A DNA stretch of 64,000 bases, taken from the NCBI GenBank assembly GCA_030762935.1, contig CM060883.1, forward strand, positions 49,029,001 to 49,093,000, written 5' to 3'. A model generated the notes under the pieces. The model was given only the letters and a program-made list of their open reading frames with translations, was not told the DNA's origin and did not search any database. The position numbers and the translations under genes are program-made. Within the stretch, counting starts at the first letter, position 1, and each line of letters starts with the position of its first letter. Positions 1-64,000 of the stretch are shown piece after piece. The DNA is from Hymenopus coronatus (taxonomy: Eukaryota; Arthropoda; Insecta; Mantodea; Hymenopodidae).

Positions 1-623
1 GTACACAGGAGTTGACAAATTCTTATTTGAGAAAAGTATAAGCATTTAAAAGCTGAAACTAAAAACAATGAATACGGTAAACTCCACGAAAAAATATATA
101 TAACATAAATTATGTGTTTTAACGAGCTCTACATTTTCTCTTACAGTTTACTAGTTATGCAAAATTCCGCAAAATTTATACACGATAAAGATGCCTTCAG
201 AGGCTATTCCCAGAAAATTGAAGATATACACTTTGTCATGTAAATATATTTAATACGACATTTTAAACAAAATCGTTAAGAGTCATTTTTGAGAAAATAC
301 ACATTTTTGAAAATTTTTCCATGTAAAGGGTAGTTGGGGTGGGAGGGATTTTCTTAAAAATCTTCGTGTCGCATTCTTGGAAGATACTGAACTTAGGTAC
401 CTAGTTGGATATTTAACGCTCTTTTCGTTTTTGAGCTATGCTGTACACACACACATACGCGCTTTCAGATAGACATTTTCTAAAATGCCTTTTTTTTTTT
501 TTTTTTTATATACAGGTGGTCTCAAAACATGGATGTCCGGTGAAATCTCGTATAGAATTTTTGGGGGCAATACAATACCTTCTCTATACACCTTGAACAT
601 AGTACGTGTAGAGAAAGTAAAAA
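1..623 (+). mobile_element. Family A element, 5' part cut by window edge
   Basis: Joins the family A body at the conserved GGAGTTGACAAATTC block and runs to the tail hairpin and the AGAGAAAGTAAAAAA end near 623. In the microsatellite slot there is only a short CACACACACATACGC run, followed by a T20 run at about 488-507. The CAAGATATAC-like core and the GGTAGTTGGGGTGGG block are present. No coding capacity is seen. Confidence 0.85.
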
Positions 624-1949
624 ATCGCTGTGGCTAAAGGAAATGTTGAATAAGTTGGAGTTGCAAGTAGCTATACGTTATGGTAATAATAAAGCTAAAA
701 TACTAAATAATGCAACAAAAAAGTAAATAATTGAAATTTTTCACGTGAGAAATTATCTTTCATTTTAAAATTAATGCATTACAAAACGTATTATAACACC
801 GTAGCATCTAGATGTTCCGCAGTGGATAATGACGCCTTTTCATTTCTTAAATACCGTATATTAGCAATTATCATTTCCTTGCATCGTCATTTTAAATACA
901 TGCATTATAATCTATTTCTTGCACATGAAAAAACCATAATTTCTTTGTATCTTTATAATTAATACATTATAAAACATTTAACATGGTGGCTTCTATTTCG
1001 CAGTGGATACTAACATAATAATTTCACTTTCCAGCCCAATGGTGTCATGTGGCATCATTATATGTCTTTAATTATCTACCTTCATTGTGTATATTTCAGT
1101 ATTTTCTTTGAATTTATTGATATCAATGCGGCTTAGATCAAGCAAAAGTGAAAATAGAATTCCTTTAAAGATAAAATTTTTTTCTAACAAATACTAATTT
1201 TGCTGCACTTCAATGCTATCGAGATCCAGTCACCACTTAGATATGCCAACCAGCGTTTATTTTACCTGGGCCCATTTCTTCCTTTATCACAGTAACATTG
1301 TATCGAGGATTCCAACCTAGGTTAACCTGTGATATTAAAAATTTAGAGCAGTGATGTTCAGCGTTTTAGAAGTTTAAACAACTGAGCTACCAATAAGATA
1401 TCAGATAAGACAAACTTTTTAAAGCAAATATGCATCTTATGGCATCGGCATTCTAGAGCAATTTCATCGAAAATTAATCGGGCTGGAAAGAGTTAAATAC
1501 GCTATTTTAGTTGTGTAACCTATGTATACTGTTATGTATGCAAAAGCACTTGAAACATCACAAATACCACAGTTTGTAATGGTTATTTCTCACTGAATAA
1601 CCTCCTGTTGTCACCTCGTGGTTATTTATTCAGAAAATATTAGTTGGGAAGAAATAATAGCAGCTGAGTAACGACAATATAACCTTGTTTATTATTTTTT
1701 TTAATTTGTTTATTTTAAGTCGCTTTACAGCTACGTCATAACGCGACTGTACGGCCTTTTATGACAATTTAATTATAATACAAGAAAATATTAATACACA
1801 CATTAAACAAAATATAACCGTGTTTATTCACGTAGTTACACATACAGAAATATTAAGAAAACGAACAGAAGACAATACAAAAGCAACTCAAATATTAATA
1901 TACAAATTATTACTATTTTATTTATTTATTTATTTTTGTTTTGTTTTGG
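624..1949. other. Anonymous AT-rich stretch
   Basis: No gene, RNA gene or repeat recognised. Contains AT-rich unique-looking sequence and a short open frame of 62 codons (774-962) with no recognisable motif. Around 1718-1760 the string AAGTCGCTTTACAGCTACG recalls arthropod SINE bodies, but no tRNA-like head is visible. Confidence 0.6.
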
Positions 1950-2152
1950 GTAGTTTAACGTCCTTTAATCTAGTTGGTCATATCGGAGATAAATAAAATT
2001 GGCGGAATGAATCTCAAATTATCTCGAAGTCCATGGAGTTTAAAGTTTCTCGATATTCTTCTCAAGATAAGGGAAAACTCCGAAAAAAACTCTATCCGGC
2101 TAACTGTTGAATGTGAGGCAGACACGCTACCCCCACACTACCTAGGCAGGCA
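1950..2152 (-). mobile_element. SINE family C, copy 1
   Basis: Left part AGTTTAACGTCCTTTAATC, then a body with CTCAAGATAAGGGAAAA and the segment GAATGTGAGGCAGACACGCT that corresponds to the tRNA-like head of copy 3 (63241-63440). The same left part is found at 40671. Minus orientation is inferred from the head being on the right. The head has lost its B-box. Confidence 0.6.
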
Positions 2153-2372
2153 TACAAATTATTACTCGAGCTATTAGAATTATCATTTGAGAAAAATGCA
2201 GGTGGTCTTATAAGCTTGGTAGACATAGCATAAAATTATATCATTAATCGCCCGAAATGGGACGGAATTTCGGATTTTAAGCTAGAAATTGATTTTCACC
2301 TTGTGTCAAAAAGTTCTATGCCAAGTTTAGTCGAAGTCGGTACAATGGTGTGGAAAAATATAACAAAAAATT

Positions 2373-3098
2373 TATCTGTTACACTCACATGACTTTCTCT
2401 AGCTACTCTACATACAAATTTCTTACAAAAGATAATTCCTTCAAACCCATGCTAATCCAGATAAACATTAGCAGAATTTTATTACTTAGTTCCTTATAAG
2501 TAGAATGAAACTAAGGGAATGCACTAGCCTAAAATGATAGTCAAATGTTTTAAATGCTGTCGTTATGTGATTGTCATTCCAAATCGCTTCTTTGCTTAGC
2601 CGGAGTAGAACAAAAGAAAACGGACACTTCCGTCTGAGAAAAATATAAGTACTTCACAATTGAAACTGATAACAAGGAATACTTCGAAAACGGTAAGCTC
2701 CACGAAAAAATATATGACATAACTTGTCTATTTTAACAAGATCTACATTTTTTGTACAGTAAGTCTTTGTCTATCTCTTACGGTTTACTAGTTATGCCAA
2801 ATTAAGCAAAATTCATCCAGAATAAACAGGTCTTTAGAAAATATTCCCAGAAAATTCAAGATATACATTTTAATTGTGATAGAAATGGCTGTAATGTGTG
2901 GTATTTTAATCAAAATCGTTAGAGCCATTTTTAAGAAAAACAAAATTTTCTATCATTTTTCCATGTAAAGGGTAGTTAGGGGCAAGGGGATTTTCTTGAA
3001 AATCTTCGTGTCGCATCCTTGGAAGATACCAAACATAAATACCCTGTTTTGGTATTTAACCGTCTTTTCGTTTTTGAGCTATGCACTCTATACTCACG

Positions 3099-3142
<44 letters not shown>

Positions 3143-3289
3143 CGGACCTGTATCTGGAAATGCTTTTTTTTTTGGTTCAGGGGGTCCTAAAACATGTATT
3201 TCCGATTAAATATAGACATTGAATTTTTAAGTGGAATACAATACTTCTCTATCCCTATGTATATGTACATACGGGGCTAGAAAAAGTAG
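2373..3289 (+). mobile_element. Family A element, full length (GC-type ends)
   Basis: Head ATCTGTTACACTCACATG with subterminal ACTTTCTCTAGC. The tail hairpin CCCTATGTATATGTACATACGGGG ends in GCTAGAAAAAGT. Head and tail share the TAGC variant of the subterminal repeat. (CA)n lies at about 3100-3136. This copy is a good reference for element length (about 0.92 kb). Confidence 0.9.
3098..3136. repeat. (CA)n microsatellite inside a family A element
   Basis: An uninterrupted CA run of about 18-19 units at the slot between the AGCTATGC block and the GGACCT block. The same slot carries the dinucleotide run in the other copies. Confidence 0.95.
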
Positions 3290-3802
3290 TAAATAAATAA
3301 ATAAGAACAAAACAAAACAAAAAACCAACACACAGAGATTTAAAAGCTACAAATGTCAGAAATGGTGCTAACAAACGTTTATTTTAATACGCTCCACACA
3401 AAAGAAAATTGTTTCAGCAAACGTTGGGATTCGAGCCAAGGAACGCTGTGTCTGAAGTCTCAACGCTGCAGAAACAATTTTAGTTTCTATCTCTCTGCTA
3501 GTTCCACACGTAAAATGAAATTGCCTGGAGCTGTCCGTGGAAATATTAGCACTTGATGCATCTACCGAAAGAAATGTTCCCAGAAAGTCGCGAGCGTCAT
3601 GTGTTTTATTTGCTTGTAGTTTTGCATAGGAAAACAAGTCATATTTACTCGTCAATACGAGACATTCAGCAAATACGTGTCGCATAGCAACAAAAAATAT
3701 ATGATGTCATATCCGTTCTGTTTTCATGGAAAAACATTGGAGGATGGATATTTCTGATTTATTGGAATATTGTGACCAAGAGAAGGAATTTGAAGAAAAA
3801 AA
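3290..3802. other. Anonymous spacer with possible SINE remnant
   Basis: Starts with a (AAAT)n/(AAAAC)n low-complexity run. Around 3425-3470 the minus strand reads GGCTCGAATCCCA, which resembles a tRNA B-box. No A-box is convincing, so a SINE is only possible. A 105-codon minus-strand open frame (3368-3685) matches nothing I know. Confidence 0.4.
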
Positions 3803-4650
3803 AATCTGATGTGTTCCATTTGCATGACTTTCTCTACATCACTGCAACAAAGTATCGTTGAGAAAAACTTATTCTTCCATTTTTTTCATGCTAATCGAGA
3901 AAAAATAGCACAAAGAGTCTTTTTTACTTGCTTCCATGTAAGTAGAAGGGAAAATAAGGGAGTACCTTAGGCTAAAGTGATAGTCAAATCTTTTAAAAGC
4001 TGGTTGCTATTTGAACGAAGTTCCTTTGTTTGTATTGACAGGAGTTGACAAATTCCCATATGAGAAAAGTATAAGTATTTTAAAGCTGAAACCAATAACA
4101 AGAATTATCTCAAAAACGGTAAACTCCATGAAAAACATGTGTATAATATAAATTGTATGTTTTAACGAGATCTACATGTTCCGTAATGAAAGTTTTTGTC
4201 TCTGTGTCTTATGGTTTACCAATTATGCAAAATTCCACATAATCCATGCAGGATAAAGTAGTCTTCAGAGCTATTCCCAGAACATTCAAAATGTACATTT
4301 TGTTTGTCATGTAAATATCTTTAATATAGGATCTTTTAATCAAAATCGTTAGAGCCATTTTTGAGAAAAACAAAATTTTCGGAAAAAGCTTCAAAGTTTG
4401 CTTGGAAATCTTCGTGTCGCATCCTTGGAAGGTAGCAAACTTAAATACCAAGTTTGGTATTCAACGATCTTTTCGTTTTCAGCTGTCGTCCACAGATACA
4501 CACACACGTACGGACATGTTTCTTTTTTGTTTTTGGATTACGTTGGACCCAAAACATGTATTTAGGTGAAATCTCGGTATCGAATTTTTGGGTGAAATGC
4601 AATACCTTCTCTGTACACAATGTACATAGTACGTGTAGAGAAAGTAAAAA
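3803..4650 (+). mobile_element. Family A element, near full length (ACA-type ends)
   Basis: Head ATCTGATGTGTTCC with ACTTTCTCTACATC. Tail ACACAATGTACATAGT followed by CGTGTAGAGAAAGTAAAAA. Head and tail both carry the CTCTACA variant. The microsatellite slot is reduced to ACACACACGTACGG. The next copy starts at the very next base. Confidence 0.9.
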
Positions 4651-5163
4651 TTTGATGTGACCCATTCATTTGACTTCCTCTAGCTCTTCCACAAACAACC
4701 TTTCGTTACAAAAGATTACTCTTTTAAATATGACAGGCTAATCGAGATAATAGCAGAAATGATCTTAGTACTTGCTTTCTTATGAGTAGAAAGGAAATAC
4801 GGGAATACATTAGCTAAAGCAATAGTCAGGCCCTTTAAAAGCTATCGCTATGAGAAAGAATTGAATTTTGTCTCTCTTTTGCATTCCCGGGAGTAAAACA
4901 AAAGAAATGAAAGTTGACTTCCCGCTTGAGAAAAGTAGTCAAAGTTGAAACCAACACCAAATATGTTACAATGAGATGTACATTTTTTCTGCAGTAAGTT
5001 TCTGTCTATCTCTCACGGTTTACGGGTTATACATCTCATCTCTAGAATGAAGAGGTCTTCTGAGGCTATTCCCAGAAAATTCAAGTGATACATTTAATTT
5101 GGTGTGTAAATATATTAAATATACGGCATTTTAATCAAAATCATTACAACCATTTTTGAAAAA
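4651..5163 (+). mobile_element. Family A element, 3' half lost
   Basis: Head TTTGATGTGACCCATTC and CTTCCTCTAGCTC directly abut the tail of the preceding copy. The body is followed to the GCCATTTTTGAAAAA block, where the next copy's head takes over inside an A run. Confidence 0.85.
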
Positions 5164-5883
5164 AATCTGTGTTACACTCACATGACTTTCTCTAGCTGTT
5201 CTACAACTTCATACATAAGATTCTTCTTTCTGCACCTTGCTAATCGTGGTACTCATTAGCACAATGTTCTTATTATTTAGTTCCGTATAAGTAGGAAGAA
5301 AATAAGGGAATACACTAGGCTAAACCAATAGTCAAATGTTTTAAAAGCTGTCGTTATGCGATTGTCATTACAAATCGTTTCTTTTCTTGGTCAGGAGTAG
5401 AACAAAAGAAAAACGGACACTCCCGTCTGAGAAAAGTATTAAGTACTTCACAACTGAAACTAATAACAATGAATACCTCGAAAACGGTAAGCTCCACGAG
5501 AAAAATGTATATGACATAAATTGTGTATTTTTACGATACCTAAATTTTTGGAACAGCAAGTTTTTGTCTATCTCTTACGGTTTACTAGTTATGCCAAATT
5601 AAGCAAAACTCATCCAGAATAAACAGGTTTTCTGAAGCTATTCCCAGAAAATTCTAGATATACATTTTATTTGCTAGGTAAATATCTTTAATATATGATA
5701 TTTTAATCAAAATCGTTTGAGCCATTTTTAAGAAAATCAAAATTTTCGAAAAAAGTTCCATTTAAAGGGTAGTTTAGGGTGGGGGGGATTTTTCTCAAAA
5801 CCTTCGCGTCGTATCCCTGGAAGATACTAAACTTAAATACCAAGTTTGGTATTTTAGCTACTTTTCGTTTTTAAGTTATCGTG

Positions 5884-5937
<54 letters not shown>

Positions 5938-6096
5938 CACACACACGGACCTTTTTCTGAAAATGCTTTTTTTTTGGATACAGGGGGTCCTAAAACATGC
6001 ATTTCCGGTGAAATCTTGGTATCGAATTTTTGGGTGGAATACAATACTTCTCTATCCCTATGTACATTGTACATATGGGGCTAGAGAAAGTATAAA
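5164..6096 (+). mobile_element. Family A element, full length with long (CA)n
   Basis: Head ATCTGTGTTACACTCACATG with CTCTAGCTG. Tail CCCTATGTACATTGTACATA followed by GGGGCTAGAGAAAGT. Ends are matched as TAGC/GCTA. The microsatellite runs from about 5887 to 5934, among the longest in the window. The body is otherwise close to the 2373 copy. Confidence 0.9.
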
Positions 6097-6235
6097 TCAA
6101 ATTTTTGGAAAAATGCTCCATGTAAAGAGTAGCTGGGTGGGAGATTTTCTTGATTATCTTCGGGTCTGAGCCTTGGAAGATGATGAACTTAAATACCCAG
6201 TTTATATTTAACCCACTTTTGAGTTTTGGAGCCAT

Positions 6236-6315
<80 letters not shown>

Positions 6316-6447
6316 AACTGACGTTTTTCAAAACTTCTTTTATATGATTCAGAGGTCTCAAAACAAATATTTCCGGTGAAATCCCGGTATCAATTTTCGG
6401 ATGGAATACAAGAGCTTCTCTTCCTACTAAGTATTAGAGAAACTAAA
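6097..6447 (+). mobile_element. Family A element, 3' part only, diverged
   Basis: Begins in the ATTTTTGGAAAAATGC block and ends with CTACTAAGTATTAGAGAAAC, a shortened tail hairpin. The microsatellite slot holds a compound (CA)n(TA)n run at about 6236-6312. Confidence 0.8.
6236..6312. repeat. Compound (CA)n(TA)n microsatellite
   Basis: A run of about 15 CA units passes directly into about 23 TA units, in the usual microsatellite slot of the surrounding family A fragment. Confidence 0.95.
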
Positions 6448-6564
6448 AACGAAACGACGGCTAAATATCAAAATTTATATTGTTCACCATCCTCTAAGGA
6501 TGCTACAGGGCGATTTCAAGAAAATCTCTCACCCCAAAGTGCTCTTTAAATGAAAAACTACACC
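6448..6564 (-). mobile_element. Family A fragment, central block
   Basis: Minus-strand remnant of the GGATGC...TTTCAAGAAAATC...CACCCCAAA block, sandwiched between two better copies. It is too degraded to define ends. Confidence 0.55.
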
Positions 6565-7433
6565 TTTTTACTTCCTCTAGCCCTGTATGTACAAGGTACA
6601 TAGGGAAGAGAAGTACTGTATTCCACCTAAAAATTCGTTGTCGAGATTTCACTGGAAATACATGTTTTAGGACCTCCTGAGTCCATAAAAAGCATTTTCA
6701 GAAATAGGTCCACGTGTGTGTGTGTCTGTGGACAGCATAGCTCAAAAATGAAAAGACGGTTGAATACCAAACTTGATATTTAGTTTTGGTATCTTCCAAA
6801 GATGCGAAACAAACATTTTCAAGAAAATCCCCCACCCCTAACTACCCTTTACATGGAAAACATTTTGAAAATTTTGTTTTTCTTAAAAATGGCTGTAACG
6901 ATTTTGATTGAAATATCACATATTAAAGCCATTTCTATCACAAATAAAACGTATATCTTGAATTTTCTGGGAATAGCTTCTAAAGACCTGTTTATTCTGG
7001 ATGAATTTTGCTTACTTTAAAATAACTAGTAAACCGTAAGAGATAGAAAAAATCTTACTGTACATAAAATGTAGATCTCGTTAAAATTCACAAGTTATGT
7101 CCTAAACATTATTTTCGGGAACTTACCGTTTTAGAGTTATTCCTTGATATTAGTTTCAGTTGTGAAGTACTTGTACTTTTCACAGACGGGAGTGTTCGTT
7201 TTTCTTTTGTTCTACACCTGACCAAGATATAACGACAGCTATTAAACCATTTGACTATCACTTTAGCCTAGTGCATTCCCTTAGTTCCAGTCTACTTATA
7301 AGGAACTAAGTAACAACATTCTGCTAATGTTTATCTCGATTAGCGTGGTGTTGAAAGAAGAATTATCTTTTGTAAGACGTCTGCTTGTAGAGTGGCTAGA
7401 GAAAGTCATGTGAGTGTAACACATCAGATTTTT
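6565..7433 (-). mobile_element. Family A element, full length (GC-type ends)
   Basis: Starts TTTTTACTTCCTCTAGCCC with the hairpin GTATGTACAAGGTACATA and ends GGCTAGAGAAAGTCATGTG...ACACATCAGATTTTT. The microsatellite is short (GTGTGTGTGTCTG). An open frame of about 70 codons on the plus strand (6802-7020) recurs in other copies. Confidence 0.9.
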
Positions 7434-7899
7434 TCTTTTCTTCTTCTCAGGAACGACTCTAACAACGTTGATGTACAATAGGTTACAGATGTTCCAAGAT
7501 ATGTGCAAGTCAAATAAAATGTACCTAATATATTTAATTTTCTGCGAATAGTTTGTGAAGTGCAGTTCGGAACCATAAAAAATGAAGATCTCTTTCAAAC
7601 ATGCAATATAGTTATGTCAAATAAATTTTTGTGATATTAGTCATTGGTATGAACTTTTTTCATGCAATATGAAATTTCCACGCTATAGAAAACGCTTTTA
7701 AACTTCTGAAGAGAGCTTTAGTTTTCTGTGTCGCTTTATCTTTAACGAAATGTTTAATGAAAGTATCTTTGTAAAGGATTATTTCAATGAACATGAGGAA
7801 AATATAAAATATCTACGTTTTCATAAGAGTAGTTGTATAAGCTAATGGGTAGACAAGGTCATATAAAATCAGGTGATCAGATATTTTAGTTTATAATTA
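7434..7899. other. Mostly anonymous; one old family A trace
   Basis: At about 7517-7560 AAATAAAATGTACCTAATAT and TTCTGCGAATAG echo the minus-strand family A core, suggesting a very old fragment. The remainder is AT-rich with no recognised feature. Confidence 0.4.
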
Positions 7900-8017
7900 C
7901 ATGGTGTATAGAAAATGTATTGTACTGCATCCAAAAATTCGATACCGAGATTTCACCGGAAACATGTGTTTTGAGCTCTCCTGAATCCATAAACAAACAA
8001 ACAAAAATAGAAAATTG

Positions 8018-8061
<44 letters not shown>

Positions 8062-8712
8062 GCATAGCTCAAAAACGAAAATCCCGTTAAATACCAAACT
8101 TGGTATTTAAGTTCAATATCATCCAAAGATGTGACAAGGAAGATTTTCAAGAAAATTTCCCCACCTCAACTACCCTTTACATGGAAACATTTTCGAAAAT
8201 TTTGATTACAATATCGCGTATTAAATATATTTACATAATAAATAAAATGCACATCTTGAATATTCTGAGAATAGCCTCTGAAGATCTCTCTATTTTGGAT
8301 GCATTTTAAGAAATTTTGCATAAATGGTAAAACGTAAGAGATGCATAAAAACTTACTTAACAAAATATGTAGAGCTCGTTATAACACACAATTTATGTTA
8401 TATACATTTTTTTTTTTTTGTAGAGTTGGCCGTTTTTTAGATATTCCTTGTTGTTGGTTTCAGTTTTAAAATACTTATACTTTTCTCATATACGAACTTG
8501 TCAACAAGTAAAGAAACGGATTTCAGTCCCATAGCAACCGCATTTTAAAACATGTGACTGTCGGTTAGGCTAGTGTGTTCCCTTCTCTTATAAGGAACTA
8601 AGTAATAAGACCGTCTCTGCTAATATTTATCTGGATTAGCATGAAATAGAATAAGCTTATTAGGAATAATTTGTCAAGGATATGCCGGGAAAGTAATGTG
8701 AATGACTATGGT
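7900..8712 (-). mobile_element. Family A element, both ends degraded
   Basis: The left tail has lost the outer hairpin arm (starts GGTGTATAGAAAATGTATTG). A (TG)n run lies at about 8022-8058. The right head is diverged (GGGAAAGTAATGTGAATG). Confidence 0.85.
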
Positions 8713-9446: not shown

Positions 9447-9708
9447 CTTATGTGTTCCATTCACATGACGTCCATCTGTTCTTCAAACACACTAGCAGAT
9501 AAGGTCTTATTAATTAGTTCCTTATACTAAGTAGAAGATAAATAAGGAATGCACTAGGCAAAAGCGATAGTCACATGTTTTAAAACCAGTCGCCTTGCGA
9601 TTGTCATTGAAATTCCTTCTTTCTATGGCCAGGAGTAAAACAAAAGAAACGACAACTTCCTGTTTGAGAAACATACGAGTGTTTTAAAACTGAAACCAGT
9701 AGCTAGGA
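9447..9708 (+). mobile_element. Family A element, 5' third
   Basis: Head CTTATGTGTTCCATTCACATG and the following AAGTAGAAG...AGGCAAAAGCGATAGTC and GGAGTAAAACAAAAGAAAC blocks are present. The copy stops in the GAAACCAGTAGCTAGGAAT block. Confidence 0.85.
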
Positions 9709-10110
9709 ATGAAATGCATCAGATTTTTAGTTTCTCTAGCCCGTATATACAATGTATATAGTGAATAGAGACGTATTGTATTCCACTCAAAAATTCGATG
9801 TCGAGTTTTCACCTGAAATGTATACGCGCGCGCGTGTATTTTGGACAGCATAGCTGAAAAACGAAAAGACATTAAAATTTTTGATTTTCTCAAAAATGCT
9901 TTAACGATTTTATTTAAAATATATATTAAGCTATTTACATCGCAAATCGTAAAATGCATATTTTGAATGTTCTGGAAATAGCCTCTGAAGAGCTCTTTAT
10001 TTTGGTTGAGTTTTACAGAATTTTGTATTACGGTCAAACCGTGAGAGATAGACAAAAACTTACCAAAAAATGTAGATCTCGTTAAAAAACGCAATTTACT
10101 TAAATACATT
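9709..10110 (-). mobile_element. Family A element, interrupted
   Basis: A 19-bp relic of a minus-strand head (GAAATGCATCAGATTTTT) abuts a fresh tail (TTTAGTTTCTCTAGCCCG) at about 9724. The microsatellite slot holds CGCGCGCGTGTATTTTGG. The copy breaks off in the ACATTTTT run, where the next copy begins. Confidence 0.8.
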
Positions 10111-10960
10111 TTTACTTTCTCCAAACGCACTATGTACATAGTGTATAGAGAATGTATTGCACTCCACCAAAAAATTCGATACCGAGATTTCACCGGAAAT
10201 ATATGTTTTAGGGTCCCCTGTATCCAAAAGGTCAGAAAAAGGTCCGAGTGTGTGTGTCCGTGTGTCAGTGTGTCAGTGTGCCCGTGTGTCTGTGAACACG
10301 ATAACTCAAAAACGAAAAGTCGATAAAATACCAAACGTGGTATTTAAGTTTAGTATCTTCCAGGGAGGCAACACGAAGATTTTGAGAAAAAATCCCCCAC
10401 CCCAAACTACCCTTTACATGGAACTTTTTTCGAAAATTTTGATTTTCTAAAAAAAATGGCTAACGATTTGGATTAAAATATCGTACATTAAAGTTATTTA
10501 CCTGACAAATAAAATGTATATTTTGAATTTTCTGGGAATAGCCTCTGAAGACTACTTTATTCTGGATGAATTTTTCATAACTACTAAACCGTAAGAAATG
10601 GACAAAAACTTGACACACAAAAAATGTAGAGCACATTAAGACACACAATTTATGTTATATGATATTTTTTCGAGGGGTTGATCGTTTTTGGTTTCAGCTT
10701 TGAAAAACTTATACTTTTCTCATACCGGAATTTGTCAATTCGTGTCCATACAAACAAAGGAATTTCAGTCACCAGCTTTTGACTTCTCTTTAAGCAATGA
10801 TACTCCCATATTTCGCTTCTCCTTACAAGGAAGCAAGTAATAAGGCTATTTCTGCTAATTTTTTCTCGATTAGCTTAAAATAAATATAAGAATAAGCTTA
10901 TTGACAATAATTTGTTACACAGAAGTAGAGAAAGTCATGTGAATGGAACACGCCAGATTT
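10111..10960 (-). mobile_element. Family A element, full length
   Basis: Tail TTTTTACTTTCTCCAAACGC with hairpin CACTATGTACATAGTG. Head ...AGTAGAGAAAGTCATGTGAATGG and CGCCAGATTTTT. It begins inside the T run of the preceding copy. The microsatellite is an irregular (GTGTGTC)n-like run at about 10247-10291. Confidence 0.9.
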
Positions 10961-11059
10961 TTTGGATTCAGGGTGTTTCCGGTGAAATCTCGGTATCGAA
11001 TTTTTGGGTCCATTATAATACCTTCTCTATACACTGTACATAGTACGTGTAGAGAAAGC
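10961..11059 (+). mobile_element. Family A solo tail
   Basis: Only the last 100 bp of the element: GGATTCAGGGTGTTTCCGG, GAAATCTCGGTATCGAA, then ACACTGTACATAGTACGTG and TAGAGAAAG. It directly follows the head of a minus-strand copy. Confidence 0.8.
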
Positions 11060-12611: not shown

Positions 12612-13126
12612 AAGCGAAAGGAAGATTTATCAAAACCCCAAACTACCCTATACATGGAAAGATTTTTCTTTCTCATAAATGGCTATGGCGATTTTGATTT
12701 ATCGTTAGATAAATACTAAACTTGGTATTTAATTTCAATTCATTTCAAGTATGCAATACAAGATTTTTAACATAAACCCCTCCATCTCAAACTACCTCTT
12801 ACATGGAAAACCGTTATTTTGATTTTCTCAAAAAAAAATGGCGGTTTGATTAAAATAGCACACGTTTTAAGATATATATATTCTCCATTCTGAATGACGT
12901 TTTCACAATTGCAAAACTCTAGGAAATACAGACAAAATCTTATTACAAAAAAGCACACAATTTATGGCCTTTTTGTGTAACTATTTCCAAGGTATTCTTT
13001 ATTACTGATTTGGGGTTTTTTTTTTTTTTTTCAAGCGGATACATACAGTTCATTTTTTTTCCCTCCTGGTCATAATACTCAAGTCCATGGAATTTCAAAC
13101 CACGACAAAAGCATATCGATTTAAAA
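12612..13126 (-). mobile_element. Family A fragments, two overlapping partial copies
   Basis: Two minus-strand central blocks follow each other (AAACTACCCTATACATGG at about 12640, AAACTACCTCTTACATGG at about 12790). The second extends through AATTTATG and CTCCTGGTCATAA towards the head, which is lost. The duplication may reflect two insertions or an internal tandem. Confidence 0.7.
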
Positions 13127-13127
13127 A

Positions 13128-13968
13128 AAAATCTGATATTTTCCATTCACATGCCTTTCTTTATATCTCTGTAACAAATGATGGTTAATCTTCTATCTAC
13201 TTCCTGCTAATCGAGATAAATACTAGCAGGATGGTGTTTTTGTTTAGTTCCTTTATAAGTAGAAGGGAGATAAGAGAATACACTAGCTAAACCGACAGTC
13301 ACATGTTTTAAAATGTGGTTACTATGGGATTGAAATAAGCTTCTTTGCGTGATCAAGTTCCCGTATGAGAAAATTAAGTATTTTAAAACAAACCAAAAAC
13401 AAGAAATGTCTTGAAAACGGTCAACTCCAAGAAAAAAATGTAAAATGACAGAAATTGTGAGTGTTTAAGGAAAACTAAATTTTTATGTAGTAAGTTTTTG
13501 TCTGTCTTACAGTTTACTAGTTATAAAAAATTCATAAGAAAAAAAATCCAGAAAAAATAAGTCTTTAGAGCCTATTCCCAGAAAATTTAAGATATACAGT
13601 TTATTTTTTACATAAATATCTTAAATATAAGAGATTTTAATTAAGATAGAATTTTTTCGTGAAAATCAACATTTTCGAAATGTTTTACATGTAAAGGGTA
13701 GTTTGGGGTGGGGCGGTTTATTTGAAAACCGTCGTGTCGTATCCTTGAGAGATACTGAACTTAAATATCAAGTTTGGTATTTAATGGGCTTTTCGTTTTT
13801 GAGCAATGCTGCCAACAGACAAACACATGCACGGAGCTTTTTCTAAAAATGCTTTTTTTTGGATTCAGGGGTTCCAAAACATATATTACCGGTGAAATAT
13901 CGGTATTGGATTTTTGGGTGCAATCCTTTATGCACTATGTACATTGTACGTGTAGAAAAAGTGGAAAT
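13128..13968 (+). mobile_element. Family A element, near full length
   Basis: Head AATCTGATATTTTCCATTCAC with CTTTCTTTATATC. Tail TGCACTATGTACATTGTACG followed by TGTAGAAAAAGTGG. There is almost no microsatellite (AAACACATGCACGG). Point decay is moderate. Confidence 0.88.
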
Positions 13969-16589: not shown

Positions 16590-16592
16590 TAA

Positions 16593-17457: not shown

Positions 17458-17487
17458 GTATATCATGTAGTGTTGTTTGTAGGTCTT

Positions 17488-46975: not shown

Positions 46976-46997
46976 TGAGTATATTATGGGATAAGTT

Positions 46998-47148: not shown

Positions 47149-47243
47149 AACCTTTCTTTGCGATTACTTTTTGGTATAGAATTCTTGGGCGAAATACAGT
47201 ACGTATGTTCCTACTGTAACAGCTAAGCTGTAGATAAAGTCAA

Positions 47244-48543: not shown

Positions 48544-48636
48544 TATTTGGACACATAATCACCGCCGGTAAACCGTTTCTTACAAGCAATAAAATCTACT
48601 AGCTAGTGCATAGAAATTCTTGTATTGAAGCAAAAA
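48544..48636. other. Short spacer
   Basis: Unassigned sequence between the mariner end and a family A head. Confidence 0.5.
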
Positions 48637-49454
48637 ATCTGATGTGTTCCATTCGCACGACTTTCTCTACTTCTCTGTAACAAATTATTGTTAATAAGCT
48701 AATTCTTCTATTTACTTCATGGCAATCGAGAAAAAATGAGCAGAAATAGCCTTATAACTTGCTTCCTTGTAAGTAGAAGCGAAATATGGGAGTATCATAG
48801 GTTAAAGTGATAGTCAAAAGCTGGTTACTAGGTGACTGAAGTTCCTTTGTTTGGACACGAGTAGACAAAGTATAAGTTTTTCAAAGCTGAAACCAAAAAC
48901 AAGAAATATCTAAAAAACAATCAACTCCTCGAAAAAAAGTTATATAACAAAATTTGTGTGTTTTAATGTGCTCTACATTTTTTGTCTGGTAAGTTTTTGT
49001 CCATTTCTTACGGTTTAGCAGTTATGCAAAATTGCGTAAAATTCATCCAGAATAAAGTAGTCTTCAGAGGATATTCCCAGAAAATTCAAGATATATCTCT
49101 TATTTGCCAGGTAAATATATTTAATATACGATATTTTAATCAAAATCGTTACAGCCATTTAAGAGAAAATCAAAATTTTCGAAAAAAAAGTTCCATGTAA
49201 AGGGTAATTGGGGGTGGGGAGATTTCCTTGAAAATCTTCGTGTCGCATTCTTGGAAGATACCAAATTTAAATACCAAGTTTGGTATTTAACGGTTTTTTT
49301 TTCGTTTTTGAGCTATGCTGTTCACTATGCTTTTTTGGATTCAGGGGGACCCAAAGTATGTATTTCCGGTGAAATCTCGGTATCGAAATTTTGGATCCAA
49401 TACAATACCGTCTCTATACACTATGTACATAGTACGTGTAGAGAAAGTAAAAAA
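48637..49454 (+). mobile_element. Family A element without microsatellite
   Basis: Head ATCTGATGTGTTCCATTC with ACTTTCTCTACTTC. Tail CACTATGTACATAGTACG followed by TGTAGAGAAAGT. The slot reads ATGCTGTTCACTATGC, so the CA run and its GGACC flank were removed cleanly. Confidence 0.9.
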
Positions 49455-50148
49455 GTACTAAAAGCTATCAATAGGTGGAAGAGAGATCAGTCGGGACACT
49501 GGATAAGAAGCAATTACTTCCCAAGAGACACTAAAAGGAAATGCTGAATGAGAAAACGGTCGGGGTAGAGAATGAAAGTGGAAGAAAGGGAATAAAGTAA
49601 AGGCTGGGTTAGAAAAGCTGCTTGGACACAAAACTACGTATATTTGGGCGATCGCCTTGAGCTTTGATTTGTGTTGTCTTTATCTATGTATCAATAATCA
49701 ATCAGTTCTCGTTAAAACTCCATGGACTTTGATTATTGAATTGTTTTACCACACAGAAAGTGACAGATGATTTGGCATAACTAAATAATAATGAAAGATA
49801 TCAGCATAAAACTTGATTTCAAAGTTACAGTACCTTATTCCATTTGTCAAAGCAATCTCCATTCTGTCAAGATATTTATTGTCACGGGTACCAGTTTTTC
49901 AAAGCCGATGTTATACTTTTCTACCGCCAAAGAACTTATTCGTTTCTTTGAATGCACAAAATATTCGTCCAATCGAATTTTATAGGCAAACAACTCCAGT
50001 GAATAGTGATAATTCAATGAACAAGTCTTCAGTGAGGAAATGGTGTATAATTTGCAAGTAATCAAGGAAGAACCAGCATGCCCGACAAAGACCAGAGTGG
50101 AAGTTCATCAATCGTTATGAAGGAATTGAAAACAAATGTTGATGAAAA
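49455..50148. other. Anonymous spacer
   Basis: No recognised element. Several short overlapping frames between 49791 and 50065 lack motifs. Confidence 0.5.
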
Positions 50149-50787
50149 AATCTGATGTGTTACACTCACGTGACTTTCTCTAGCTGTTCTACAAACTTCT
50201 TACAAAAGATTCTTCTTCTTTCTGCATCTTACTAATTGAGGTACTCATTAGCACAATGTTCTTATTACTTAGTTCCTTATAAGTAGGAAAAAATCAGGGA
50301 TAAACTAAAAAAAGCCATAGTCAAGTGTTTTGAAAGCTGTCGTTATGCGATTGTCATTACAAATCCTTTCTTTGCTTGGCCAGGAGTAGAACAAAAGAAA
50401 ACCACACACTCCCGTCTGAGAAAATGTAAGTACGTACTTCACAACTGAAACTAATAATACTGAATACCTCGAAAACTGTAAGTTCTACGAGAAAAATGTA
50501 TCTGACATAACTTGTGTATTTTAGCAAGACCTACATTTTTGTATAGTAAGTTTTTGTCTATCTCTTACGGTTTACTACTTATGCCAAATTAAGCAAAATG
50601 CATCCAGAATAAACAGGTCTTTAGAAGCTATTCCCACAAAATTCAAGATATACATATTAATTGTCAGCTAAATATCTTTAATATAAGATATTTTAATCAA
50701 AATCGTTATAGCCATTTTTAAGAAAATCAAAATTTTCGAAAAAAGTTCCATGTAAAGGGTAGTTTGGGGTGGGGGGATATTTCTCTG
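50149..50787 (+). mobile_element. Family A element, tail third missing
   Basis: Head ATCTGATGTGTTACACTC with ACTTTCTCTAGCTG. The body continues to GGTAGTTTGGGGTGGGGG, then ends abruptly before the microsatellite slot. Confidence 0.88.
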
Positions 50788-51361: not shown

Positions 51362-51510
51362 ATTTTTACTTTCTCTTGCCCCGTATGTACAATGTACATA
51401 GGGATAGAGAAGTATTGCATTCCACCCAAAAATTCGATGTCGAGATTTCACCGGAAATACATGTTTTAGGACCCCCTGAATCCAAAAAAAGCATTTCCAG
51501 AAAAAGGTCC

Positions 51511-51543
<33 letters not shown>

Positions 51544-52282
51544 CGTGTTTCCGTGAACACGATAGCTCAAAAACGAAAATTTGCTAAAATACCAAACTTG
51601 GTATTTAAGTTCAGTATCTTTCAGGGATGCGACACGAAGATTTTGAGAAAAATCCCCCCACCCCAAACTACCCTTTACATGGAACTTTTTTCGAAAATTT
51701 TGATTTTCTTAAAGATGGCTCTAACGATTTTTATTAAAATATCGTATATTAAAGATATTTACCTGACAAATAAAATGTACATCTTGAATTTTCTGGGAAT
51801 ATCTTCTAAAGACCTGTTTATTCTGGATGAATTTTGCTTAATTTGGCATAACTAATAAACCGTAAGAGATAGACAAAAACTTACTTTACAAAAAATGTAG
51901 GCCTTGTTAAAATACACAATTTACGTCATTTACGTTTTTTTCGTGGAGCTTACCGTTTTCGAGGTATTCATTGTTATTAGTTTCAGTTGTGAAGTACTTA
52001 TACTTTTCTCAGACGGGAGTATCCGTTTTTCTTTTGTTCTACTCCTGGCCGAGAAAAGAAGCGATTTGTAATGACAATCGCATAACGACAGCTTTTAAAA
52101 CATTTGACTATTGGTTTAGCCTAGTGTATTCCCTTAGTTTCTTCCTACTTATACGGAACTAAATAATAAGAACATTGTGCTGAATACCTCGATTAACAAG
52201 GTGCAGAGAGAAGAATAATCTTATGTAAGAAGTTTGTAGAACGGCTAGAGAAAGTCATGTGAGTGTAACACATCAGATTTTT
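51362..52282 (-). mobile_element. Family A element, full length, well preserved
   Basis: Tail TTTTTACTTTCTCTTGCCCC with GTATGTACAATGTACATA. (TG)n at about 51510-51533. Head ACGGCTAGAGAAAGTCATG and ACACATCAGATTTTT. It carries the longest version (166 codons, 51355-51855 on the plus strand) of the open frame that recurs in the family. Confidence 0.93.
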
Positions 52283-53801: not shown

Positions 53802-55295
53802 GGTCTGACGTGTTACATTCACATAACTTGCTATATCTGTTCTGTAAACAGACTTCTTATAAAGATTATTACTTTATCCAGCCCCGTATGTACAATATAC
53901 ATAGGGATAGAGAAGTATTGTATTCCACCCAAAAATTCGATACCGAGATTTCATGGGAAATACATGTTTTAAGGTCCGTGTGTCCGTGAACACGATAACT
54001 CTAAAACGAAAACTAGCTAATATACCAAACTTGGTATTTAAGTTTAGTATCTTCCAGGGATGCGACACGAAGATTTTGAGAAAAATCCCCCCACCCCAAA
54101 CTACCCTTTACATGGAACTTTTTTTGAGAATTTTGATTTTCTTAAAAATGGCTCTAACGATTTTGATTAAAATGTCATATATTAAAGATATTTAGCTGGC
54201 AATTAATATGTATATCTTGATATTTCTGGGAATAGCTTCTAAAGACCTGTTTATTCTGGATGCATTTTGCTTAATTTGGCATAACTAGTAAACCATAAGA
54301 GATAGACAAAAACTTGCTATACAAAATATGTAGGTGTTGTTAAAATACACAAGTTACGTCATATACATTTTTTTCGTGGAGCTTACCATTTTCATGGTAT
54401 TGATTGTTACTAGTTTCAGTTGTAAAGTACTTATACTTTTCTCAGACGGGAGTGTCCGTTTTTCTTTTGTTCTATCCCTGGCCAAGAAAAGAGGCTATTT
54501 GTAATGAAAATCGCATAACGACAGCTTTTAAAACATTTGACTATCGGTTTAGCCTTGTGAATTCGCTTATTTTCTTCCTACTTATAAGGAACTAAGTAAT
54601 AAGAGCATTGTGCTAATGAGTACTTCGATTAGCAAGGTGCAGAAAGAAGAATAATCGTATGTAAGAAGTTTGTAGAACAGCTAGAGAAAGTCATGTGAGT
54701 GAAACGCATCAGATTATTTTTTTATCTACTTTATGCTAATCATATAAACATTACCAGAAATTGATTCATTTCTTGCTTTCTTATAATTATAAGGGAATAT
54801 ACAAGGCTAAAGCAGCAGTAATATATTTTCAAAGCTATCGCTATGCAATTTTGACTGTATTCGGTATTCTTTCCGTGGCCAGAAGTAAAACTACGCGAGA
54901 AATGAAACGTATGAAGGCTTCCTGTTTGAAAAAAAAAAATGTTTAAGTATTTCAAAACCCAATTCAATAACAGGGAATATCTCTGAAAAGGTTAGCTCTA
55001 TAAGAAAAGTATGTGTCAAACTGTGTGTTTTAATGAGATTTACATTTTTTTTTAGTAAGATTTTGTCTATCTTTTACGGTTTACCAGATATGCAAAATTC
55101 ATCCGGATTAAAGAGGTCTTCAGATCCTATTCCCAGAAAATTCTAGATATACATTTTATTTTTCATTGCTGTATTTTAATCATCATGATTATAGCACTTT
55201 TAGAGAAAAACAAAACTTTTCGTGTCGCATCCTTGGAAGATACTAAACGTAGATACCAAGTTTTGTATTTTGGTTTTTGAGCTGTGTCGACTGCA
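53802..55295 (+). mobile_element. Family A element split by a nested family A element
   Basis: Head 53802-53870 (GTCTGACGTGTTACATTC to AAAGATTATT) and body 54716-55295 (TTATCTACTTTATGCTAATC onwards) are contiguous in other copies. The break is a T run. The body ends in the microsatellite slot (TGCACACACGCGCGG), where SINE-like sequence follows, and the tail is lost. Confidence 0.85.
53871..54715 (-). mobile_element. Family A element nested in another family A element
   Basis: Tail ACTTTATCCAGCCCCG with TATGTACAATATACATA. Head CAGCTAGAGAAAGTCATGTG and ACGCATCAGATT. The microsatellite is deleted (AAGGTCCGTGTGTCCGTG). The host sequence resumes directly on both sides, so the ends of this copy define the inserted unit. 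Confidence 0.9.
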
Positions 55296-57954: not shown

Positions 57955-58161
57955 TAAAAAAAAATTGCTATGTAAAAAATGTAGAATTTCTTAAAAGACA
58001 GAATATATGTCGCATATCTTTGTGGATTAAGATATTCCTTGTTATTGTTGAATTTTCAAACACTTATAGTTTTTGAAGTGGCTAGCCCCAAGCATTTTCT
58101 TCTCGTTATGCAAAGAAAATTAATTTTTAAAGCCAGCACATAGCCACATGCTGTTTATATG
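57955..58161 (-). mobile_element. Family A, old head-side fragment
   Basis: AAAATTGCTATGTAAAAAATG, TAAGATATTCCTTGTTATTG and CGTTATGCAAAGAAAATT trace the body towards the head. The terminus is not visible. Confidence 0.65.
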
Positions 58162-58988
58162 TTTACTTACTCTACATGTACTTGTAGAGTACACGGAGGG
58201 AGTATATTTATGGTACTCCAATTCCATACAATTTCACCGCAAATACATGTTTTGAGGCCCCTGAATCCAAATTGTTTTCAGAAGCAGGGCCGTGTGTGTA
58301 TGTGTGTGTGTGGGAACAACATAACTCTAAAGCGAAAATCGGCAAAATATCAAACTTAATAAGCATTTTCCTAGGATGCGACACGAAGATTTTAAAGAAA
58401 ACCCCATACTAACACATGCCAGAATTTTTTTTTAAAATGTTGGTTTTCTCAAAAAATGGCTGTAGCGATTTTGATTAAAATACCGTATATTCAAGATATT
58501 TACATTGCAGATAAAATGTATATATCCAATTCTCTGGGAATAGCATCTGAAGGTCTCTTCGTTCTGCATGAGTTCTGCATAACTAGTAAATAGAAACACA
58601 TAGACAAAAACTTAAAACACAACAAATGTAGATCTCGTTTAAAAATACAAGTTATGTCACATATGTACACTTTTTGTGATGTTAACCCTTTCAGAGATAT
58701 TCCTTATTTTGGTTTCAATAAAAAAAAGTTTTGTCATACTGGAAATTATCGTTTTGTTTCTTTTTTTTTTTTTTTTTTTTTTTACTCCTGGTCATGCAAA
58801 GAGAATCGGATTTCAAAGGTTTTTTAAAAGATTTGATTATAGCTTTAGCCCAGAATATTCTCTTATTTTCCTTTCGTTATGGGGAACTAAGTAATATGTT
58901 CATGTTTTCATAATAATAGAAAAATAATCTTTTGTAAGAATAGTTTTTTGCAGAATAAGTAAAGAAAGTCAAGTGAATAGGCCAACAT
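58162..58988 (-). mobile_element. Family A element, full length but diverged
   Basis: Tail TTACTTACTCTACATGTAC with a short hairpin (CATGTACTTGTAGAGTACAC). (TG)n at about 58291-58311. T25 run at about 58759-58783. Head TAAGTAAAGAAAGTCAAGTG. A divergent lineage of the family. Confidence 0.82.
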
Positions 58989-59035
58989 ATGTTTTTTTTC
59001 TGCTGCTATCCACAGATACTCGCACATGGACTTTT
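58989..59035 (+). mobile_element. Family A scrap
   Basis: CTGCTGCTATCCACAGATAC and GCACATGGACTTTTT match the microsatellite-slot region. Confidence 0.5.
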
Positions 59036-61258: not shown

Positions 61259-61999
61259 CAAATCTGACGTGTTGCATTGACAAGACTTTTCTACCTCTTA
61301 TGCAAACAAAATATTCTTACAAAAGATTATTTCTCTATCTATATCACGCTAAACGAGATAAACATTAACGTAATGGGCCTTACCATTTGGTTCCTTGTAA
61401 GTAGAAGGGAAATAAGGGAATACACCAGGGTAAAGCGATACTCAAATCTTGAAGTTCGGTTTGCTTTGCATTTCCAGAAAAACTAAAACGAATTGAAAGG
61501 AAAGACGACCCCATTTGAGAACATGCGTAGCTTAAAACTGAAACCCATAACAAGCAATAACTCAGAAAAGGTCAACTCTGTAACAAAAATGTATATCTGT
61601 TACGGTTTACCAGTTATTCAAATTCAGCAAAGTTCATCCAGAATGAACAGGTCTTCAGATGCAATTCCCAGAAAATTCAAAATATACATTTTATTTGTTA
61701 TGTAAATAGCTTTAATATACGGTATTTTAATCAAAATCGTTAGTTATTTTTGAGAAAATAAAACATTAAACAAATTTTCCATGTAAAGTGTAGTTCTTGG
61801 AAATCTTCGTGTCGCATCCTTGGGACATAGCAAATTTAGATATCAAGTTAACGATAATTTTAGTTTTTGAGCTATGCTGTCCACAGACACACACAAACGC
61901 GACCTTAAAACGTATTTCAGGTGAAATCTCGATATCGAATTTTCGGTCTGAATACAATGCTTCCTCTATACACTATGTACAAAGTAAAGAAAGTAAAAA
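61259..61999 (+). mobile_element. Family A element, shortened
   Basis: Head ATCTGACGTGTTGCATTG with ACTTTTCTACCTC. Tail CACTATGTACAAAGTAAAG, so the outer hairpin arm is lost. The body lacks the ACATTTTTTGTG block. (CA)n reduced to ACACACACAAACGC. Confidence 0.82.
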
Positions 62000-62494: not shown

Positions 62495-62944
62495 GGGGAG
62501 CTGTATTCACATGACTTTTTCTAAACATTCTTCTATGAACTTATTACAAAAGCTTTCGCTTCTATCCTCTATCTCTAATTAAGCTAAACTTTCATGATAC
62601 CTTACCACTTGTAATAAATGTATAAATATGTATCTAACTGGTAAACCATATGACATTTTCCACTCACTTTTATTCAAACTATCCTTAAAAAACGTACTAT
62701 TATAGCTACTTATACACTTTGTTGTAGGTTACAGTAAGTAAAGCAAGATTTTTAAAGAGGGTGGCGCTATGTAATTACATTGAAATTCCAAGTTCTTTGC
62801 ATTCACACACGCAAAAAGCGAATAAAGACTTTCCATTTTAGAGCACAAGTATTTGAAAATTCAAAAGAAGAGCAACGAAAATACCTCGGAAATAATCAAT
62901 GCTACAAAAAAGTTTGGCATAAATTGTGTACACTCTCACTCTCT

Positions 62945-62998
<54 letters not shown>

Positions 62999-63232
62999 CT
63001 CTTATTTTATTTTTCAATAAGATCTTTCTCTTCGGGTTAGAGCCATTTCTGATAAAATCAATATTCCCAAAATTTATTCCATGTAAAAAGTAGCTTTGGG
63101 CGTGAGCACTTTGTTGTATATAAATATTATTTTTTTCCTACTTTGCAAGAGCGTTCGCTTACACGCGCGCACACACATTTTTCTCTAAAATGCTTTTAGA
63201 ACACACGGGCCTCAAAACTTTTATTTCCCAGC
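62495..63232 (+). mobile_element. Family A relative, old
   Basis: GTATTCACATGACTTTTTC marks a head. The body blocks (TTCTTTGCATTCACACACGC, ACCTCGGAAATAATC, CCATGTAAAAAGTAGC) are diverged and contain a (CT)n run at about 62946-62993. It ends in GGGCCTCAAAACTTTTATTTC, next to a SINE. Confidence 0.65.
62946..62993. repeat. (CT)n microsatellite
   Basis: About 22 CT units with a few interruptions, at a different body position from the usual (CA)n slot. Confidence 0.95.
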
Positions 63233-63240
63233 AATCCGAC

Positions 63241-63440
63241 CTTTTTTCCCCTTAGCTTAAAGTTATTTAACCTGTGGTTCATTGAGCATAAAAGCTACTC
63301 GATGTTCATCTTCTCAGGATAAGGGAAAGACCAGAAGAAAAACCTTTTCCGGGTAAGCTATCTTAAGCGAGATTCGAACTCGCGACCTCTGAATGTGAAG
63401 CAGTAACCCTACCCCTCCCCCACTATAGAGGCGTGCTGTC
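63241..63440 (-). mobile_element. SINE family C, copy with intact tRNA-like head
   Basis: Minus strand: CCTCTATAGTGGGGGAGGGG, CTGCTTCACATTCAGAGG, then B-box GAGTTCGAATCTCGC, and a body with CTTATCCTGAGAAG. It defines the head lost from the copies at 1950 and 40671. Confidence 0.62.
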
Positions 63441-63476
63441 GAATTTTTATACCTATTTTTAAGTTCATATTGGGGA

Positions 63477-64000
63477 ATGTTAAAAGTAGAAGTATTTGAA
63501 AATTAAAGCCAATACTTCGGAAATGCTTAATGCCACAGAAAATGCTATTTGGCATAAATTGTGTGCTTAAAGAAGATCCACATTTTTATGTTGTAAGACT
63601 TTGACTTACCCTTTCGGTTTATCAGTTACGTAGATCGATCAGAATGAAGAAAACTTCAAAGGCTCTTCGCAGAAATGTCAAAGTATAATATCAATTATCC
63701 TTTCAATATCTTAAACATATTATTTTAATCAAAGTCGTTAGATACACTTTTGAGACAATATAAAACAACGATACATGTTCCATGTAAAGCATAGTTTGGT
63801 TTGGGGGAATTTTCATGCAACTCTTCGTACTTTTGAGTTTTGTATTTCCAACTCACACGCGCGCGCGGGAACTATTTTTAATATAGCCTTTTTGAATCCA
63901 GGGGTCTCAAACCATGCATTTACTGAAATTTCTATATGGAAGTTTTGGGTAGAATACTATATTTCCTCTACTTAGTAATGGTAAATGAGGAAGTAAAAAT
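63477..64000 (+). mobile_element. Family A relative with variant end, head missing
   Basis: Enters at AAAGTAGAAGTATTTG and ends exactly at the window edge with TTCCTCTACTTAGTAATGG, TAAATGAGGAAGTAAAAAT. The hairpin outer stem is TTCCTC/GAGGAA, where most copies have CTTCTCTA/TAGAGAAAG. The slot holds ACACGCGCGCGCGGG. Confidence 0.75.

Follow-up and report, generated by a model that had tools for sequence, protein, structure and literature searches.

A probable Helentron-associated non-autonomous family that likely makes up 25–33% of the genome of the mantis Hymenopus coronatus

We analysed a stretch of 64,000 nucleotides from the genome of the mantis Hymenopus coronatus (assembly GCA_030762935.1, contig CM060883.1, positions 49,029,001 to 49,093,000; hereafter the window), about half of which consists of copies of a single repeat family. 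The repeat unit is ~0.9 kb long and non-coding, and is very probably a Helentron-associated non-autonomous element (HINE), copied by the Rep-helicase of Helentrons resident in the same genome. Self-BLAST of the window returned 2,736 high-scoring segment pairs, with 56.3% of the positions covered at a depth of at least 1, 48.0% at a depth of at least 5 and 46.3% at a depth of at least 10. An nhmmer profile of 899 positions, built from 12 near-complete copies, resolved 70 fragments (33 on the plus and 37 on the minus strand), of which 17 have both ends and 30 are at least 600 bp long. Together, these fragments cover 52.0% of the window; an earlier note made from the letters alone, which put the family at some 60 copies and roughly half the window, was thus right as to size. 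Over 322,080 bases (the window and all fetched loci), the profile found 242 matches versus 6 in the reversed-sequence control, and the motif ATCTGATGTG occurs exactly 11 times in the window when both strands are counted. The family has no coding capacity: the longest frame over its copies measures 219 aa from stop to stop (9684–10343), and the only long frame found in the window, of 1251 aa, belongs to a long interspersed element lying outside the family.

The copies have fixed ends, T5-ACTTTCTC at the 5′ side and CACATCAGA-T5 at the 3′ side, aligned copies starting with T5-A-CTTTCTC. Outer terminal inverted repeats are absent from the aligned copy ends. From 5′ to 3′, the element is composed of a T-run, a subterminal repeat ACTTTCTCTA(GC), a hairpin, a GT-rich slot placed in the 5′ half, a conserved body, an inverted GCTAGAGAAAGT, a 3′ stem-loop, CAGA and ~5 Ts. 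The 5′ subterminal repeat ACTTTCTCTA(GC) recurs as an inverted copy ~26 bases before the 3′ end; as read by eye, the two repeats are ACTTTCTCTAGC and GCTAGAGAAAGT, 12 bp long, in subtype A (for example in the copy at 5160–6092), and measure ~10 bp in subtype B. The first ~45 bases form a hairpin, one arm of which overlaps the 5′ subterminal repeat. When each 5′ end was folded singly together with one shuffle of each, the arm was paired in 77 of 85 ends versus 15 of 85 shuffled ones, with a mean folding energy of −14.0 versus −6.7. The arms also covary: where the right arm has GGG, the left arm has CCC in 8 of 9 ends, and where it has GTG, the left has CAC in 38 of 47, relatedness among the ends being uncontrolled. 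Alifold returned no consensus structure on the 85 aligned 5′ ends, which we think is because the two subtypes differ in length. A dinucleotide run of at least 12 bp occupies the slot in 14 of the 28 window fragments that span it (13 GT and 1 AT), and one more fragment has its run elsewhere. The fixed ends, the dinucleotide slot and the lack of outer inverted repeats that the earlier note had described were therefore all borne out.

What are the two ends of this element? In the HINE convention, a 5′ module combines a subterminal repeat, a complementary inverted repeat and a microsatellite, and a 3′ module combines a subterminal repeat and a palindrome (PMC4067079 and PMC7492417). By this convention the hairpin side is the 5′ end and the ATCTGATGTG side is the 3′ end, which turns the element around with respect to the earlier note, where the 3′ end was called the “head” and the 5′ end the “tail hairpin”.

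The copies in the window are given here as profile fragments with model positions out of 899. Both ends are present in the copies at 2365–3288 (minus strand, subtype A hairpin), 10109–10963 (plus), 13126–13966 (minus), 15728–16591 (minus), 17485–18357 (plus, subtype B hairpin), 30725–31574 (plus), 48633–49453 (minus), 51367–52282 (plus, subtype A) and 58161–58995 (plus, diverged), as well as in those at 3799–4650 (minus), which stands head-to-tail with the next copy, 6569–7434 (plus), nested within a HINE fragment, and 35529–36340 (minus), head-to-tail with 35331–35527. Nearly complete copies lie at 7898–8705 (plus), 26914–27732 (minus) and, gapped, at 61260–61986 (minus). Others are truncated: 5–622 (minus) spans model positions 5–671, 24037–24769 (plus) and 50145–50785 (minus) are cut at their 5′ side, 31925–32730 (plus) is cut at its 3′ side, and 3′ parts are found at 23232–23867 (minus, model 230–893) and 34719–35329 (minus, model 294–897). 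The copy at 53974–54719 (plus, model 178–898) has its 5′ piece at 53870–53977. At 29258–30022 (minus), a copy is nested in a copy of the opposite strand, and the truncated copy at 30046–30722 (plus) is the right part of the interrupted host.

Insertions are found in T-tracts. A T stands at each of the five positions before the 5′ A in 82–94% of 79 5′ ends (those of 95 5′ end matches whose start could be recognised and whose flank was long enough), and at each of the five positions after CAGA in 86–94% of 77 of the 117 3′ ends. Just outside the T-runs, T falls to 24% on the left, where A reaches 51%, and to 60% on the right. No duplication of at least 3 bases beyond the T-run was found in any of 30 copies, with at most 0.2 expected by shuffling, so that a non-T duplication, if it occurs, would have to be rare. 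Insertion without target duplication, which the earlier note listed as a trait of HINEs, fits these copies for bases other than T. With the Ts kept in, the five flanking bases are shared in 18 of 30 copies versus 16.8 of 30 after shuffling. Empty-site comparisons inside other HINE copies likewise place the insertions in T-tracts. The copy at 5160–6092 (minus, both ends, subtype A) splits a host copy into a 3′ part at 4646–5164 (minus) and a 5′ part at 6094–6433 (minus) with no non-T duplication, and the copy at 41330–42206 (plus, both ends), also inside a HINE copy, has a longer 3′ T-run than its empty site. In both cases the sequence on the left is that of the host, and ~5 Ts are gained on the right; in a nested insertion of a fetched locus (L012), the flank pattern is less clear. 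In total, 371 matches span an insertion, and those at tandem junctions, which match the element's own end, were not counted as empty sites. As judged from alignments whose A/T-richness leaves doubt, the 3′ Ts seem to be borne by the element and the 5′ Ts to belong to the target.

How abundant is the family in the genome? The assembly searched comprises 3,126,739,099 bases in 384 contigs; the published one has 3,127,590,514 bases, 20+X chromosomes of which the X is the largest, and a scaffold N50 of 159,059,693 (PMC12908712). Coverage was sampled in 19 regions of 10 kb at fixed coordinates on contigs C1–C12, with contigs C13–C21, including the largest (C21), outside the sample. The family covers 3–65% of these regions, with a mean of 32.4% (bootstrap 24.8–40.2%), in 139 fragments with 63 3′ ends and 50 5′ ends, 23 fragments having both. 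Genome-wide, and thus independently of this sampling, ATCTGATGTG occurs exactly 259,753 times versus 2,679 for the reversed pattern, and CACATCAGATTTTT 184,546 times versus 55 for the control. When sample coverage was calibrated on these two whole-genome counts, the genome share came to 26.7% and 33.1% from the 19 regions (0.85 and 1.06 million 3′ ends), 24.9% and 17.8% from the window (0.82 and 0.59 million) and 26.0% and 25.5% from both together (0.84 and 0.82 million). Calibration on a junction pattern gave lower values, 7.5% and 21.4%, and rests on one sample match; the lowest usable calibration is 18% (0.56 Gb). Most estimates thus lie at 25–33% and 0.8–1.06 million 3′ ends, and the family probably accounts for between one quarter and one third of the genome. 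After masking, the next-largest repeat cluster accounts for ~1.5% of the 19 regions, a sample in which a repeat family shows up only if two or more similar copies fall within it, and the HINE family covers ~20 times the DNA of any other repeat detected in the sample. Two exact patterns from the family (19 and 20 bases) had no match in viral_contigs.

The family is also old. Of 99 fragments aligned over at least 500 columns, 94 fall into a single cluster, whose members differ from its consensus by a median of 11.2% (6.7–23.6%), and the pairwise median difference over all 99 is 23.4%. Average-linkage clustering did not separate hairpin subtypes A and B. This divergence is compatible with the “ancient burst of Helitrons” reported in H. 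coronatus (PMC12908712).

What could copy such an element? The genome contains 112 matches to the Rep domain (PF14214), of which 22 loci were read, by our own choice and with weaker matches favoured. The Rep of Helentrons is told from that of Helitrons by an RGS versus an RGL form (PMC4067079): 8 of the 22 loci have RGS (..VEFQMRGSPHEH..), 7 have RGL and 7 have neither, and each of the 8 fragments of Helentron type is interrupted by stops in the frame shown. The locus L054 holds Rep, PIF1 and Pif1_2B pieces on the minus strand, with PIF1 helicase matches at E 3.1e-19 and 2.6e-16; L055 is 85–90% identical to it over the common coding part and has ~1 kb extra. The 3′ end of L054 reads ...GAGCTAGAGAAAGTTATGTGAATGAAACACATCAGATTTTTTT, and its 3′ part matches model positions 799–898 (E 6.8e-9). 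A search with the last 804 bases of L054, in which the best 40 of 134 candidates were scored, gave 43 matches. Sixteen of these, at 76–87% identity, stop at query positions 785–789 of 804, inside the terminal T-run; they hold at least ~70 bases of Helentron-only sequence and end at the 3′ terminus of the HINE family. The other 27 comprise L054 itself, 12 short matches to ordinary HINE ends and 14 whose alignments break off before that point, L055 among them. As read from these alignments, the common 3′ terminus is the strongest link between Helentrons and the HINE family.

The link at the 5′ end is weaker. L054 has ACTTTCTCTATC on its 5′ side and matches the family from 30 bases on, over ~505 bases (model 74–611, E 6.4e-67); its best match in the sample for this region is the copy at 28023–28682 (plus, model 5–687), at 74% over 375 bp. 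Because L054 is ~69–75% identical to HINE copies over the shared 5′ part, it is a cousin of the family and not its direct parent. A search with the first 2.4 kb of L054 gave 80 matches, and the HINE-like 5′ part is contiguous with the Helentron body in L054 and in three loci at 83–88%. Three diverged loci on contigs C8, C19 and C21 (67–68%, by alignment only) run from query positions 118–184 to 1428–1456, and their alignments cross the transition from HINE-like sequence to Helentron body. Five relatives of L054 also match it over 88–96 bp upstream of the HINE-like 5′ part, and in the four that were read (L058–L061) a HINE fragment precedes this ~95-bp stretch. Thus, the L054 relatives form one composite lineage of HINE and Helentron. 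In L054 and L058–L061, the order of the composite unit is a HINE fragment, the ~95-bp stretch and the HINE-like 5′ part running into the Helentron; such units were seen at six places in all, cut short in two loci on C11 and C16, and possibly arose when a Helentron moved together with an upstream HINE. L056 was considered as a second Helentron 5′ end and set aside, as it has a HINE insertion and, beside it, only a short stretch of HINE-like sequence, perhaps just a piece of an ordinary HINE; the piece of L057 did not reach the Helentron 5′ end. The earlier note had suggested looking for a long Rep-helicase element, possibly with an endonuclease, that shares both ends with the family. Sharing at the 3′ end was found (16 of 43 matches), sharing at the 5′ end is less firm, coming from the composite lineage and the three diverged loci, and the endonuclease amounts to one weak match.

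Several observations weigh against the family being a HINE copied by these Helentrons. Among the Helentron loci read, no direct parent of the family was found. L054 and the HINEs have a subterminal repeat identical over 10 bp by eye. When the final 60 bp of 100 HINE 3′ ends are compared with L054, the median identity is 73%, and 4 ends reach 80%. Members of one family or subfamily should have at least 11 bp of identical repeat and at least 80% identity over these 60 bp, which rules out L054 as the direct parent but leaves the HINE class unaffected. L055 has lost CACATCAG from its 3′ end, and its endonuclease match (PF14529, positions 6025–6936, E 0.007) is weak and below the Pfam cut-off, in a ~1-kb stretch that L054 does not have. 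The first 55 bases of L054 fold weakly (−3.9) and do not have the second hairpin arm; 19 of the 80 5′ matches start only at query positions 631–648, and their 5′ ends were not found. Moreover, a 5′ end of the L054 type does not count as a boundary in its own right, since the similarity to its five relatives continues upstream. In the family itself, the 3′ stem-loop has a consensus of ATGTG-N7-CACAT with an exact stem in 48 of 117 3′ ends, counted from a limited pattern list and without a shuffle control. Finally, copies in which both flanks are T5 may conceal a TTTTT target duplication, against which the one-sided extra Ts at 41330–42206 and 5160–6092 argue.

Could another class of transposon account for the family? 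A cut-and-paste DNA element, of Tc1/mariner type or another miniature inverted-repeat transposable element with a hairpin formed by chance, comes to mind since Tc1 is reported as the largest transposon class of H. coronatus (PMC10415354 and PMC12908712) and DDE_3 transposases are present in the genome, all 150 scored candidates out of 13,126 first-pass ones exceeding the cut-off. The ends, T5-ACTTTCTC and CACATCAGA-T5, however, have no terminal inverted repeats and adjoin Ts rather than TA, none of the 30 copies shows a duplication of at least 3 bases beyond the Ts (the 2-bp case not being scored separately), and it is Rep-helicase elements that bear the 3′ end of the family; judged by these ends and elements, we give this origin very little credence. 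Alternatively, the Helitron-type Reps (RGLPHAH) of the genome could have moved the family as a non-autonomous element of the canonical Helitrons, which belong to the same Rep-helicase rolling-circle class and are present in the mantis genome in loci L032 and L033. Reps of this type were found in 7 of the 22 loci read, L032 and L033 being among the best PF14214 matches, and the bases outside the Ts, A in 51% on the left and T in 60% on the right, resemble the A|T target of Helitrons. Canonical Helitrons, in contrast, end in 5′ TC ... CTRR 3′, which the HINE ends do not, and it is Helentrons and DINE-1 that combine subterminal inverted repeats with an inverted repeat at the 5′ end (PMC4067079). 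The 10-kb pieces around L032 and L033 have no termini in common with the family, containing neither CACATCAGAT nor CATGACTTTCTC on either strand (the Helitron ends there being unmapped), so that this alternative, too, appears very improbable. L032 and L033 themselves encode canonical Helitron-type Rep-helicases, the Rep match being broken by one or two stops, and represent a separate rolling-circle lineage.

A further question bears on the arrays rather than on the class of the family: are head-to-tail copies rolling-circle concatemers or separate insertions? The fetched sequence contains 11 head-to-tail pairs, and exact junctions CACATCAGATTTTTACTTTCTC number 7,062 genome-wide versus 0 for the reversed pattern, beside the 184,546 exact occurrences of CACATCAGATTTTT. 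In the window and the 19 regions, there are 8 junctions for 81 5′ ends, and HINE 3′ ends make up 73 of 2,268 T5 runs, an excess of junctions of ~3-fold over a random choice of T5 runs that rests on 8 events. These counts would suit concatemers. The array at 38011–40666, however, consists of three copies with both ends, at 38011–38883 (plus, subtype B), 38879–39785 (plus, subtype B) and 39786–40666 (plus, subtype A), of which the second differs from the first by 6.5% and the third from the second by 24.3%, as fits separate insertions into an older T-run. Because it mixes subtypes, this array at least is not one concatemer, and we consider concatemers an unlikely source of the arrays in general.

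What, then, would be the mechanism of HINE amplification? The structural features open to testing fit the HINE class, and Helentron-type Reps exist in the genome; apart from its direction, the reading of the earlier note is supported. A Helentron Rep would nick at the T-flanked ends, and the helicase would displace a single strand that inserts into a T-tract; copying without excision could thereby have raised the family to its present share, ~0.8–1 million copies or roughly 25–33% of the genome. Those Helentron genes that were read would since have decayed, and the expansion is therefore probably over.

Known HINEs provide the closest comparison. Like DINE-1 (INE-1) and other HINEs, the mantis family has subterminal inverted repeats (11–15 bp in the published elements), an inverted repeat nested with the 5′ repeat, a microsatellite, a 3′ stem-loop, a T-rich target without target duplication and a partner with an RGS-type Rep-helicase (PMC4067079). 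It differs in number, with ~0.8–1 million 3′ ends versus 334 to 6,297 block-A matches per Drosophila genome for DINE-1 (PMC2374699), and in its distance from the partner, published HINEs being at least 84% identical to theirs (PMC4067079) whereas the mantis partner found is ~70–75% identical. The Cg_HINE of the Pacific oyster has the same combination of a left subterminal repeat, complementary inverted repeat and microsatellite with a right repeat and palindrome, but contains central satellite-like tandem repeats where the body of the mantis element is unique sequence (PMC7492417). In the open-licence literature on Helentrons and Helitrons of mantises or insects, we found no description of this family. 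As far as the literature was searched, this HINE-type family has thus not been described before; its mechanism is ordinary, its share of the genome extraordinary.

Other elements were noticed in and around the window. At 43286–47041 (minus), an unbroken frame of 1251 aa from stop to stop comprises an endonuclease (PF14529 and PF03372), a reverse transcriptase and an RNase H, and looks like a young non-long-terminal-repeat retrotransposon; a relative is seen by eye in L032 (8720–9091). A sister family of the HINE lies at 36726–36915, 37114–37337, 42732–42952 and 47243–47469 (minus), its members being 71–82% alike and partly head-to-tail. It matches the profile only over the last ~220 positions, ends near ATCAGATTTTT and ACTTTATCT, and is perhaps a second HINE family. 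At 47770–48366 (minus), a frame of 198 aa with no Pfam match resembles by eye the end of a mariner/Tc1 transposase, and contains SPDLTPCDFYLWG, which we take to be a motif of such transposases. SINE-like (short interspersed element) sequence is seen by eye around GTTTAACGTCCTTTAATC at 1930–2150 and 40668–40780, beside HINE copies. Elsewhere in the genome, COX1 gave 100 matches (the best 96 of 2,100 candidates being scored), mainly on C21, C17, C16, C15 and C5 and also on C253, C263 and C321; many are full length with TGA as the sole or main “stop”, indicating very many nuclear mitochondrial insertions. The COX1 sequence of C253 is 95% identical to that of Statilia maculata; among the matches listed, the top seven (95–85%) include mantises, and cockroaches and termites come next.

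How does the family appear in existing annotation? DNA transposons of H. coronatus were reported to total 558 Mb, or 19.4%, with TcMar-Tc1 as the largest subclass (Huang et al. 2023, PMC10415354), and Tc1 was again the largest, together with a large Helitron share, in a second study, of 2025 (PMC12908712). At 0.8–1.0 Gb, the HINE family exceeds the whole published DNA class (558 Mb), which it would not do at the lowest calibration (18%, 0.56 Gb). It may be partly filed as Tc1 in the published annotation, and equally maybe under Helitron or unknown. Helentron-derived elements are abundant but usually minor parts of genomes. Here, with a little better than an even chance, one non-autonomous rolling-circle family of about a million copies (~0.8–1.0 Gb) would be the main builder of a 3.1-Gb genome and, since its total exceeds the 558 Mb of reported DNA transposons, much of the published Tc1 would be misnamed HINE. 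Growth of the mantis genome thus becomes testable against a single family, which also offers a very large set of insertions in which to study how Helentrons choose their targets, how hairpins evolve and how tandem insertions arise. The published transposon tables of mantises may need to be re-examined, together with the conclusions on Tc1 and genome size drawn from them.

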